From a virus: a DNA stretch of 64,000 bases. Location of the stretch: the IMG/VR virus record IMGVR_UViG_3300047994_000025, positions 1-64,000 of that record; one strand, given 5' to 3'. Below are positions 43,654-48,971 of the stretch, in pieces. Every line of letters starts with the position of its first letter. Position 1 is the stretch's first letter. Below the pieces are notes generated by a model, which ran no database searches, had not been told where the DNA came from, and worked only from the letters and a program-made list of their open reading frames with translations. Both the position numbers and the translations under genes were made by a program.

Positions 43654-44565
43654 TTATGCCGCCTGTCGTACGCTTTGATCTAATGCGATCTGTTTGAAAA
43701 GGTGTGCAATCACTTCAACCGTCCACCCATTACCGAGCATCTTGTATCGTTGTGACTTCGGCGCAAAACCCGTGTAATTTTCGGGAACAGTCTGAAGTCT
43801 TTCGCATTCCAAGGGGGTCATTGCCCGCCATGTCGTAACACCGTTTTTCTGCGTTATAACGGCAGTGCCACCAGAACCACAAGGATTACCGGCATTCCAA
43901 GCGCCAAGACATGCTGATTTTTCGTCAAGGTCTCGAAGATTTATGGACAATCTTTCGCGCGATAGTTTACCCTTTGATCCGCCAAAAAATTCGTCGTTCT
44001 TTTCAACCTTGTGTCTTGAAATATCCTTGACGTTGCCTTCAATGATGTCACGGATTGTCAGCTTTTTATCAATCCATTCATGAACCGGGAAATTCGTCCA
44101 ATACAATCGTAATCGGTTTTGAGCACTAAAATCCGAACTGTTGATCAGTATTGGTTTTACACCGAGAAACCCCGAAATGACGTCTTGCCAGTCCTGTTTC
44201 ATGTTGACGTTTTCAAGTAAGAAATAACGCGGTTTGAGTTCTCGCATTAGTCGGACGAACTCAAAAAATAGCTTTGATCGCGGGTCTTCAAAATTCAAAC
44301 CTTGTCCGGCTGTGGAAAACCCTTGACACGGTGAACCACCCATCAAGAGCGATATTTGCGGCAAGCGATCGACATTGACTTTTGTCACGTCACCAAGCTG
44401 TACCGTACGTGGGAAATTTTGCTGCGTTACGGCAATTGCATGCTTGTCGATTTCCGACGCAAAGTAACGACCGTATTTCACGCCCGCGCGGTTCAACGCC
44501 AGTTGGCCGCAAGACATTCCATCGAAAAGCGAAGGCTTTTCGGAATAACGTGTGGATTTGTCCAT
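43654..44565 (-). CDS. C5-cytosine DNA methyltransferase
   Basis: A 303-residue enzyme. Motif I-like LFDGMSCGQLALNRAG, motif IV GGSPCQGFS with catalytic Cys at 80, motif VI FLLENV (116-120), and motifs IX-X near LQTVPENYTG and KMLGNGWTVEV are all present. It should methylate cytosine in the phage DNA to escape host restriction. Its base composition is visibly more AT-rich than its neighbours, so recent gain is likely. Its codons 4-8 contain one copy of the repeat found at both ends of the adjacent small-gene cassette. Confidence 0.88.
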   Translation of the reverse strand: MDKSTRYSEKPSLFDGMSCGQLALNRAGVKYGRYFASEIDKHAIAVTQQNFPRTVQLGDVTKVNVDRLPQISLLMGGSPCQGFSTAGQGLNFEDPRSKLFFEFVRLMRELKPRYFLLENVNMKQDWQDVISGFLGVKPILINSSDFSAQNRLRLYWTNFPVHEWIDKKLTIRDIIEGNVKDISRHKVEKNDEFFGGSKGKLSRERLSINLRDLDEKSACLGAWNAGNPCGSGGTAVITQKNGVTTWRAMTPLECERLQTVPENYTGFAPKSQRYKMLGNGWTVEVIAHLFKQIALDQSVRQAA

Positions 44566-46485: not shown

Positions 46486-46520
46486 CCAAACCGTCAACGG
46501 CAACACGGAGAAAATTGCAC

Positions 46521-47279
46521 ATGGCAAATCGGAAATTCACAGTGACGTTTGATGTCGCTGACGATGAATTCGAAAACTTCATGACCCGTCTTTCGGGCGG
46601 CAAGATTTTCGAAGGGGAAATTCCCCGCAATCTCACACTGAACACCGGCGAAGGTGACGAAGGCGACGGCCCGGTTAACACCGGATCGGTCGACAAGTTC
46701 GGCGTAACTTGGGATGCTCGATTCCACGGCGTCGCCAAGAATACGAACAAGGATGGTTCGTGGAAGCGCACCAAGGGTCTGTCGGACGCCGTCAAGGCTG
46801 AAGCCGACGCTTACGAAGCCGCACAGAAGGCGGCGTTTACCGGCAATGTGACCGGACCGGCTGTCACGGAACCCACTCCGGCACCTGTCGCCGCGCCTGT
46901 AACTGCCGCACCTGTGGCCGAACCCGCTCCGGTCGCCGCACCTGTCGGAATGCCCGGACTGCCGGTCGCAGCGCCCGCCGCTCTTCCGCTTCCCGTCGCT
47001 CCGGTAGCGAAGCCGCCGATCAGCTATGAAGAAGTCGTCGCGCTCTTCGGTCAGGCGTCCGCGAAAGACCCGTCGATCGCCGCGAACTTCGCACAGCTTT
47101 ACGCGGAATGCGGTATCAGCGATCCGAACGCGCTGACCACCGACGAAACTCTTCGTCGCAAGCTCGCCGACCGGCTTGAAGCCGTAATCGCGGCGGCTAT
47201 CCGACTTTCGGGGTTGGAACCTCAGTCGAACAGACCTGCTCTCAAATCGCACTCCAAGGTTGACAGGTTGACCCCATGA
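46521..47279 (+). CDS. Disordered-linker protein, C-terminus altered by an insertion
   Basis: A 252-residue protein. Residues 1-100 form a globular part (KFTVTFDVADDEFENFMTRL, then FGVTWDARFHG) reminiscent of phage ssDNA-binding partners; residues ~115-175 are a Pro/Ala linker with MPGLPVAAP; residues ~175-230 are helical (YEEVVALFGQASAKDPSIA). The native end was ADRLEAVIAA plus stop: that stop now lies at 48860-48862 behind a 1.66 kb insert, and the present gene reads into 27 foreign codons ending LKSHSKVDRLTP. Confidence 0.75.
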   Translation: MANRKFTVTFDVADDEFENFMTRLSGGKIFEGEIPRNLTLNTGEGDEGDGPVNTGSVDKFGVTWDARFHGVAKNTNKDGSWKRTKGLSDAVKAEADAYEAAQKAAFTGNVTGPAVTEPTPAPVAAPVTAAPVAEPAPVAAPVGMPGLPVAAPAALPLPVAPVAKPPISYEEVVALFGQASAKDPSIAANFAQLYAECGISDPNALTTDETLRRKLADRLEAVIAAAIRLSGLEPQSNRPALKSHSKVDRLTP

Positions 47280-47542
47280 CCAATCGTCGTGTTCATAATC
47301 TTATCGTAGTCTGGATCGTTCAGCCTGATGCTGAAGTCGTAGATATCGATCAAGCGCTTGGTGCCGTACTTCAGCAGCGCCTTGGCTCGGAGCGTCTCCA
47401 GATCGTAGCCACGACCGCCGCACTGCTCGACGACCGGATCGGTGATGATCGTGTCGACGTACAACTTCCCGTCCAGCTCTTCGGTCTCCATGGCCAGGTA
47501 GCCATCCAGCCGCAGCAGATCAAACCCAACAATTCCCCGCAT
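47222..47542 (-). CDS. Hypothetical protein in methyltransferase island
   Basis: A 106-residue balanced, alpha/beta protein (MRGIVGFDLLRLDGYLAMET, then DLETLRAKALLKYGTKRL). It is divergent from the methyltransferase and overlaps the end of the disrupted gene. ATG 47542 has GGGGA five bases upstream; in-frame ATG 47569 and TTG 47593 are alternatives. It could be a controller or partner of the methyltransferase; no motif shows this. Confidence 0.5.
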   Translation of the reverse strand: MRGIVGFDLLRLDGYLAMETEELDGKLYVDTIITDPVVEQCGGRGYDLETLRAKALLKYGTKRLIDIYDFSIRLNDPDYDKIMNTTIGHGVNLSTLECDLRAGLFD

Positions 47543-47607
47543 GCCCGTCCCCGCTTTCGGCGCGGACATTACCGGGACCGGGTTACCAGTCAACTAAGGG
47601 TCGCGGC

Positions 47608-48753
47608 ATGACGGCTTACTACAACGAGATCGATCCGTACGCCGCTCAGTGGCTTCGCAACCTCATAAGCAAAAACCTCATCGCTCCGGGCGATGTCGAT
47701 GAAAGGAGCATCGTGGATGTCCATCCCGACGACCTCAAAGGGTACAGTCAGTGCCACTTTTTCGCAGGCATCGGAGGCTGGAGCCTCGGGGCACGGCTCG
47801 CAGGATGGCCAGACGATCGACCTCTTTGGACTGGTTCCTGCCCGTGCCAGCCGTTCTCAGCGGCAGGAAAAGGCGAAGGGAAAGCAGACAAGCGTCACCT
47901 CTGGCCAGTCTTCTTCAACCTCATCCGTGCCCAGCGGCCCCATGTCGTCATGGGAGAACAGGTTGCGGCTGCGGTTGGAAAGGATTGGCTCGACGGAGTG
48001 CATTCTGACCTGGAAAGCATCGACTACGCCTGCGGGGCTGCCGTTGTCCCGGCTTGTGCCGTCGACGCGCCCCACAGAAGAGATCGCCTCTGGTTTGTGG
48101 CCCACCCCGACCCTGCCGAACGGCGGGAGATCGATAGCCTGCGCGGACGAATGGCGCGGCAATACCCCGTACCACAAAGGCAGGAAGCTTCAGGTGGACC
48201 TTTCCCAGACGGTAAGGATGGTCAAGGGCATAGCCCTGTGGCCAACGCCGAACAGCCAGATCAGTGGGGATACCCCAGAGACGCACGAAGCGCGGCAAGC
48301 CAGGGTGGTGGCAAAGCATGGGCGCAGGATGGGGACACCATTGGTCGTGCATGCGATGCACGCGGAATCGGGAACCACGATAGCGGCTCTATGGGCGACA
48401 CCAAAAGCGTCGGACGGGAAGGGCAACATCTACCTACCAGAACCAGATTGCAGGCGGGTGGAGCTTCGGAAGCAGGTCGGCGGAATAGCACTTCATGGTC
48501 AGGAGCAGAGTTCATCGTCGGAGCGGACGGAAAAGCCCGGCGCATTGAACCCGGCATTCGTCTCCTGGCTCATGGGGTTCCCGCCAGAGTGGGAAGATTG
48601 CGCGCCTACGGAAACGCCATCGTCCCGCAAGTCGCGGCAGAAGTGATCGGCGCATTTATGGAGACACACAGCCCGTCCGCCCGATCCGCTCCGAGCTTTG
48701 ATCCACTACTCGGATCGGGCGGACTACCGTTGGAGCAAGGGAATGAGCAATGA
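47608..48753 (+). CDS. C5-cytosine DNA methyltransferase (Dcm-like) in island
   Basis: A 381-residue enzyme. N-terminal YYNEIDPYAAQWLRNLI, motif I HFFAGIGGWSLG (50-61), motif IV TGSCPCQPFS with Cys at 80, motif VI-like VVMGEQVA, motif VIII-like VDAPHRRDRLWFVA, and a C-terminal GRLRAYGNAIVPQVAAEVIG (motifs IX/X). The middle target-recognition region is Gly/Asp-rich and unstructured-looking, as expected if it is constrained by the second gene read in another frame. It should protect phage DNA from restriction. Confidence 0.88.
   Translation: MTAYYNEIDPYAAQWLRNLISKNLIAPGDVDERSIVDVHPDDLKGYSQCHFFAGIGGWSLGARLAGWPDDRPLWTGSCPCQPFSAAGKGEGKADKRHLWPVFFNLIRAQRPHVVMGEQVAAAVGKDWLDGVHSDLESIDYACGAAVVPACAVDAPHRRDRLWFVAHPDPAERREIDSLRGRMARQYPVPQRQEASGGPFPDGKDGQGHSPVANAEQPDQWGYPRDARSAASQGGGKAWAQDGDTIGRACDARGIGNHDSGSMGDTKSVGREGQHLPTRTRLQAGGASEAGRRNSTSWSGAEFIVGADGKARRIEPGIRLLAHGVPARVGRLRAYGNAIVPQVAAEVIGAFMETHSPSARSAPSFDPLLGSGGLPLEQGNEQ
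47717..48646 (+). CDS. Overlapping gene inside the methyltransferase (+1 frame), WPTP-repeat protein
   Basis: A 309-codon open frame lies wholly inside the methyltransferase gene. Its ATG at 47717 has a perfect AAAGGAG eight bases upstream, better than most starts here. The product has NRLRLRLERIGSTECILTWK, three spaced tryptophan words (LWPTPT 127, LWPTPN 174, LWATPK 225) and an end with NPAFVSWLMGFPPEWEDCAP and SSRKSRQK. I recall the same words in many proteins annotated beside Dcm-like enzymes, so conservation of this frame seems likely. Function unknown; a partner of the methyltransferase is a reasonable guess. Confidence 0.65.
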   Translation: MSIPTTSKGTVSATFSQASEAGASGHGSQDGQTIDLFGLVPARASRSQRQEKAKGKQTSVTSGQSSSTSSVPSGPMSSWENRLRLRLERIGSTECILTWKASTTPAGLPLSRLVPSTRPTEEIASGLWPTPTLPNGGRSIACADEWRGNTPYHKGRKLQVDLSQTVRMVKGIALWPTPNSQISGDTPETHEARQARVVAKHGRRMGTPLVVHAMHAESGTTIAALWATPKASDGKGNIYLPEPDCRRVELRKQVGGIALHGQEQSSSSERTEKPGALNPAFVSWLMGFPPEWEDCAPTETPSSRKSRQK

Positions 48754-48862
48754 TCGTATCAACCTCGGAAGACGAAAGCAGGAGGGGACCCCCGAATGTC
48801 AGATCAACCTCAGAAATCGGAAAGCCCCCGCCGACCGGCTTGAAGCCGTAATCGCGGCTTAA
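48743..48862 (+). CDS. Short frame ending in the displaced C-terminus
   Basis: A 39-codon frame begins at the ATG 48743 at the methyltransferase end and runs through the right repeat, ending ADRLEAVIAA, the original end of the split gene. It is probably a by-product of the insertion rather than a working gene. Confidence 0.3.
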   Translation: MSNDRINLGRRKQEGTPECQINLRNRKAPADRLEAVIAA

Positions 48863-48895: not shown

Positions 48896-48971
48896 TGGGG
48901 AGTCGCCAAGCGGTAAGGCACCGGCTTTTGGGTCCGGCATTTCATAGGTTCGAATCCTATCTCCCCAACCA
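48896..48971 (+). tRNA. tRNA-Gln (TTG anticodon)
   Basis: A full cloverleaf: acceptor TGGGGAG pairs with CTCCCCA, D arm GCCAAGCGGTAAGGC, anticodon loop TTTTGGG with TTG at 48928-48930, T arm ATAGGTTCGAATCCTAT, discriminator A and encoded CCA (48969-48971). It decodes CAA, which phage genes use often. The last pair of the anticodon stem is C-T (48925/48933), a mismatch absent from typical tRNA-Gln. Confidence 0.93.

Follow-up and report, generated by a model that had tools for sequence, protein, structure and literature searches.

The nested reading frames

The window considered here, a 64,000-nucleotide stretch of viral DNA (positions 1 to 64,000 of IMG/VR record IMGVR_UViG_3300047994_000025, which comprises 67,359 bases), carries on its plus strand a gene for a phage-type C5-cytosine DNA methyltransferase (C5-MTase) with a second long reading frame inside it. 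The outer frame, A (47608–48753, 381 residues), is assigned as the catalytic, or alpha, chain of the enzyme. The inner frame, B (47717–48646, 309 residues plus stop), is +1 to A and lies wholly within it; its product is proposed to be a beta chain that carries the recognition domain and motif IX. The initial annotation had reported, from the letters of the DNA, a 309-codon frame inside a methyltransferase gene that begins at an ATG 8 nucleotides past AAAGGAG, and had noted the words WPTP, WPTP and WATP in its product; the sequence bears out the frame, its start and the order of the words. SWLMGFPPEW, which had been taken for the end of the protein, is present but is followed by 17 further residues (EDCAPTETPSSRKSRQK).

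The Shine-Dalgarno sequence AAAGGAG occupies positions 47702–47708, within the codons of A that specify VDERSIV, and is separated by 8 nucleotides from the start codon of B at 47717. The frame of B is open for 16 more codons upstream of this ATG, with further in-frame ATGs at 47693 and 47699. In 80 diverse relatives, whose B proteins are less than 60% identical, VDxRSI of A is retained at the start site of B, and NGG/AGG arginine codons and GGAG are enriched there. The arginine codon is AGG in 25 of the 80, against 9% elsewhere in A, and GGAG is found at the ribosome site in 42 of the 80, as compared with 19 of 134 other Arg-Ser contexts (p 3e-9). The aspartate codon that creates the ATG of B is GAT in 57 of 67 cases (57:10), against 373 of 949 elsewhere (373:576; p 1e-13). 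The two elements also co-vary, with both present in 40 relatives, neither in 21, and one of them in 19 (17 and 2). The start of B is thus preserved through the codon choice of A.

Conservation of the second frame

The +1 frame remained free of stops in 293 of 20000 (1.5%) synonymous shuffles of the codons of A, and in 855 of 20000 (4.3%) draws from the codon usage of the window, the amino acids of A being fixed in both cases. These results suggest that an open +1 frame, judged from one genome alone, is merely mildly unusual. With odds this modest (1.5–4%), the question has therefore to be decided by relatives. Because a first collection of 73 loci had been found with B itself, and was thus biased by selection on B, a second set of 80 viral loci was drawn by means of A alone. 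All but one of these (L091, which has no measurable region) are informative, and several are near-duplicates.

In 72 of the 79 informative loci the +1 frame contains no stop over about 280 codons. Each of the remaining seven has a single stop, mostly within the last few codons, so that stops are not scattered through B in the relatives examined. The other frames of the same loci are closed, the +2 frame averaging about 12 stops and the antisense frames 5–8. The control family was provided by a second C5-MTase of the virus, a one-chain enzyme encoded on the minus strand at 43654–44565. Its 79 relatives average 23 stops in the +1 frame, and in none is that frame open; their GC content is mostly lower, and the three with at least 50% GC have 10–13 stops.

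Purifying selection on B is evident in an overlap-aware test that sorted every nucleotide change according to what it does to A and to B, for 37 independent pairs, with 36 flanking genes given a mock +1 frame as controls. The ratio of changes that are silent in A and alter B to those silent in both (SN/SS) is 0.41 in the overlap, compared with 0.91 in the flanking controls and 1.1 in the part of A that precedes the start of B. For B, NN/NS is 0.57 (0.48–0.66), against 0.80 (0.74–0.86) in the controls. The 5′ half of the overlap, which encodes the N-terminal half of B, is likewise under selection (SN/SS 0.48), and when only the A-selected, more divergent pairs are considered the ratio is still 0.49 and 0.56. 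In the 3′ half, variation at the first position of the codons of A (the third position of B) is 0.236 and that at the third position is 0.183, compared with 0.098 and 0.293 in the controls; this half of the overlap evolves with the codon periodicity of B. Among relatives the B proteins share 26–72% identity across their whole length. Since the +1 frame is open in relatives, changes that alter B are suppressed, and the ribosome site and start are conserved, both frames are judged on sequence evidence to be conserved protein-coding genes, and B a real gene.

Catalytic and proposed recognition segments

Frame A is a member of the C5-MTase family by several measures. It matches PF00145 (E 6e-18, residues 75–190) and phrog_363 (E 3e-82), and its AlphaFold2 (AF2) model aligns with M.HhaI with Z 14.7 over 197 of 327 residues; the sequence-profile alignment with HhaI is confined to the catalytic domain. 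Motifs I, IV, VI, VIII and X are all near-invariant and in the expected order. Motif I, FFAGIGGW (47758–47781), which binds S-adenosylmethionine, lies in near-invariant alignment columns; it is followed by PCQ of motif IV (47842–47850), aligned to HhaI, with invariant P79, C80 and Q81, of which Cys80 is catalytic; by GEQV of motif VI (47953–47964; G116, E117 and Q118 invariant); and by APHRRDR of motif VIII (48067–48087; P155, H156, R158 and R160 invariant). Motif X, GNAIVPQVA (48610–48636), has invariant G335 and N336.

The AF2 model of A is folded at residues 1–180 and 301–354. Between these parts lies a linker of about 110 residues (181–291; 48148–48480) that is predicted to be disordered, with predicted local distance difference test scores (pLDDT) below 50 throughout, and that varies with the codon periodicity of frame B. 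According to the model, the span of A between motifs VIII and X is thus without a predicted fold, at the place where other C5-methyltransferases hold their recognition domain.

Frame B matches phrog_1008 (E 3e-36) over residues 5–301, corresponding to positions 9–287 of the 329 in the profile, and tblastn finds it in 191 records among phage sequences. The residues TWK, WPTP and LNPxxxxWLMGxPxxW are invariant or almost invariant in its profile. Three segments can be distinguished. A predicted helix and beta-hairpin at residues 77–116 (SSWENRLRLRLERIGSTECILTWKAS..GLPLSRLVPS; 47945–48064) is the longer of two confidently predicted parts, the other lying around residues 280–290, and it falls in the 5′ half for which selection was detected. 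The WPTP/WPTP/WATP region (48098–48526) is the proposed target-recognition domain (TRD). Near the C terminus is the segment LNPAFVSWLMGFPPEW (48545–48592), in which L277, P279, W284, L285, M286, G287, P289 and W292 are invariant or nearly so. The residues of its pattern LNPxxxxWLMGxPxxW, and their order, are similar to those of HhaI motif IX (HPRECARVMGYPDSY), a reading made at the level of motifs, since no significant profile match to known motif IX was obtained. The segment stands at the same position as its counterpart in single-chain relatives, just before motif X.

The one-chain relatives place these parts of B within a methyltransferase. In two Firmicutes-type loci, L279 and L273, catalytic motifs, WPTP region, IX-like segment and motif X share one chain. 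The L279 protein is a single open reading frame (ORF) of 420 residues in which PF00145 (residues 4–165) is followed by a B-family stretch (residues 200–310; hhalign probability 95.4%, E 2e-8) and then by motif X. A third form is found in L257, L271, L274 and L276, where motifs I–VIII lie in one ORF and TRD, IX and X in an overlapping one; the long chain of L257 matches the B profile with a probability of 99.7%. Because they are fused to catalytic motifs in the one-chain relatives, the WPTP region and the IX-like end of B appear by sequence to belong to the methyltransferase, in which they occur in nested, split and joined form. A pattern-based classification left 82 loci unclassified and hence serves here for examples only. 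No stand-alone B was found among the loci examined, the apparent cases being split, one-chain or frameshifted forms.

In L279 and L273 the N-terminal half of B survives separately, in an overlapping ORF that measures 173 and 164 codons, respectively, from stop to stop; this hints at a role of its own. Two further variants were seen. EBPR siphovirus 2 (gp44; L168, 3001–5496) has an intein-like insertion directly before the catalytic cysteine of A; the insertion separates the B frame from its usual start, and an ATG within the inserted sequence appears to serve as a new start for B. Four Klebsiella-type prophages (L060, L070, L071 and L073) share one kind of frame change, located after motif VIII and before the variable region, which shifts both frames at once and gives three ORFs. 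A decayed allele, phase variation or a shared sequencing error could account for it.

A putative two-chain methyltransferase of phages

Products A and B are very probably the catalytic and DNA-recognising halves of one heterodimeric cytosine methyltransferase. Computational support for this reading comes from the conservation of both frames as genes, the absence of any folded recognition domain from the predicted structure of A, and the fusion of parts of B to catalytic motifs in relatives. The nearest precedents are M.EcoHK31I and M.AquI. The small-chain gene of M.EcoHK31I also lies inside its large-chain gene in another frame. Like the large chain of that enzyme, A carries motifs I–VIII and X, and B ends in a IX-like segment where one-chain relatives have motif IX. 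M.EcoHK31I is a two-polypeptide C5-MTase that recognises YGGCCR, with motifs I–VIII and X on the large chain and motif IX on the small one (PMC3404938). M.AquI, which recognises CYCGRG, has motifs I–VIII on one chain and the distal variable region and motif IX on the other (PMC3404938).

The precedents also differ from the pair in the window. By description, the recognition domain of M.EcoHK31I is on its large chain, whereas the corresponding region of A is predicted to be disordered and follows the frame of B. M.EcoHK31I belongs to a bacterial restriction-modification system, whereas the gene in the window is that of a phage, and no restriction enzyme was seen next to it. Motif X of M.AquI is carried by the small chain, but that of the window by the large chain, A; motifs IX and X together on a small chain, absent from the window, are present in L257, L271, L274 and L276, which resemble M.AquI in splitting I–VIII from TRD-IX-X with overlapping frames. 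Once A and B are combined, the catalytic domain and motif order are the same as in single-chain C5-MTases such as M.HhaI and the enzyme at 43654–44565. Those enzymes differ in having all motifs in one frame and a second frame rich in stops (16 in the window's own copy).

In the proposed mechanism, A would supply the catalytic chain, with motifs I–VIII, the disordered linker and motif X. Ribosomes would additionally initiate inside A at the conserved Shine-Dalgarno sequence and ATG and read the +1 frame to make B, which would bring the helix-hairpin, the WPTP recognition region and the motif-IX-like segment. We infer that B is expressed and that the two chains join as a heterodimer, each alone probably being inactive. 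A would methylate, and B would recognise DNA and close the small domain, much as in M.EcoHK31I and M.AquI. The heterodimer would thus mark phage DNA, with B mainly determining the target sequence, and such marking would probably shield the DNA against host restriction.

Alternatively, B could be a real but separate protein, for example an anti-restriction factor or a regulator, that shares DNA with a self-sufficient methyltransferase A. Overlapping genes do not require a functional link, and several observations weigh against a division of labour between A and B. Pfam finds no C5-MTase match in B. The AF2 prediction for B is of poor quality (mean pLDDT 56, predicted template modelling score 0.25), being confident solely at the two parts named above, and no solved structure matches B by fold or by profile, a result that is uninformative either way given the poor model; the TRD role therefore rests on the one-chain relatives and on position. 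The one-chain form occurs in just two distinct contigs, both metagenomic. In the A-selected, more divergent pairs, selection in the 3′ half is weaker (NN/NS 0.83). The main loose end is a conserved stretch of A, DGKxRxVEPGxxxLAHGVPARV, which HMMER aligned, non-significantly, to motif IX of HhaI. Since this stretch is weakly alignable, A may not fully lack motif IX and may retain part of it. A separate function for B is nevertheless unlikely: A has no folded recognition domain in the AF2 model, in L279 and L273 the WPTP and IX-like parts of B form one continuous frame with the flanking motifs VIII and X, and B was never seen without A among the loci examined.

It is more doubtful still that the main product is a frameshift fusion of A to B after motif VIII, joining motifs I–VIII to TRD-IX in place of an internally initiated B. 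The existence of two one-chain forms favours such a product, as do L056 and L188, which hold motifs I–VIII of A and the C-terminal part of B in one ORF, but the Shine-Dalgarno sequence and ATG of B are specifically conserved, and the N-terminal half of B, absent from any fusion of this kind, is also under selection. The view that B is no gene, its long frame being left open by the amino acids and codon bias of A, gains something from the modest odds in this genome and from the frequency of long open second frames in GC-rich genes, but it is rejected by the A-selected relatives (their +2 frames included), the control methyltransferase family and selection in both halves of the overlap, as well as by the kept start site and the full-length identity of B, and would be tenable only if the tests shared an unseen bias.

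The conserved dual-coding locus envisaged in the initial annotation is supported, by the stop-free frames of the A-selected relatives, by selection and by the conserved ribosome site and start. That annotation had placed WPTP proteins beside similar enzymes in other genomes and called the partner unknown. The partner is indeed conserved, but it is most likely the recognition-domain half of the same methyltransferase, and it already has a family, PHROG 1008, and in a few phage records a name: ‘Mte8-like protein’ in Kagunavirus K1ind2 and ‘g50 Internal gene’ in Paenibacillus phage Rani. PHROG 1008 and PHROG 363 (‘DNA methyltransferase’), of which B and A of the window are members, are annotated separately, and their entries are silent on the nesting and on the role of B. 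Two-chain C5-methyltransferases, B as a phage protein family and the overlap in a few records are thus already known; a full-text search of the open-access literature found no paper describing the nested phage pair.

Phages of Pseudomonadota, Paenibacillus, Lacticaseibacillus, Mycobacterium and cyanobacteria carry the nested form. In a sample of 398 genomes from one bacterial phylum, 27 have phrog_1008 matches, some of them not full length. Most of the records examined in detail annotate a single frame; both are annotated in K1ind2 and Rani, and RefSeq E. coli prophage copies list the cytosine methyltransferase alone. The arrangement is widespread in phages, and annotations usually list one gene of the two.

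In the window, an exact 30-bp direct repeat, with two copies only (47165–47194 and 48829–48858, plus strand), brackets a 1.66-kb module that comprises the A/B gene and a small minus-strand ORF (47222–47593). A stop lies directly after the right copy, and by sequence the module looks as if inserted at the 3′ end of the gene at 46515–47279. A tRNA-Gln (TTG) gene (48896–48971) is located directly downstream of the right repeat.

Long overlaps on the same strand with selection in both frames are rare, and proof of them is hard to obtain. In this case the two frames have about 300 codons in common, several independent tests support the overlap, and the arrangement recurs through a large family. Since databases list one protein, a recoded clone of the annotated frame would silently drop the partner and could give a dead enzyme. 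The natural nested, split and one-chain forms make the origin of the overlapping genes, and the split between catalysis and specificity, directly testable. It seems rather probable that a whole class of phage C5-MTases, whose hosts span at least four bacterial phyla and whose records mostly describe a single protein, consists of obligate two-chain enzymes with the catalytic and the recognition half in two frames of one DNA stretch. If so, any change of the recognised sequence in these phages would have to pass through the linker of the other half.
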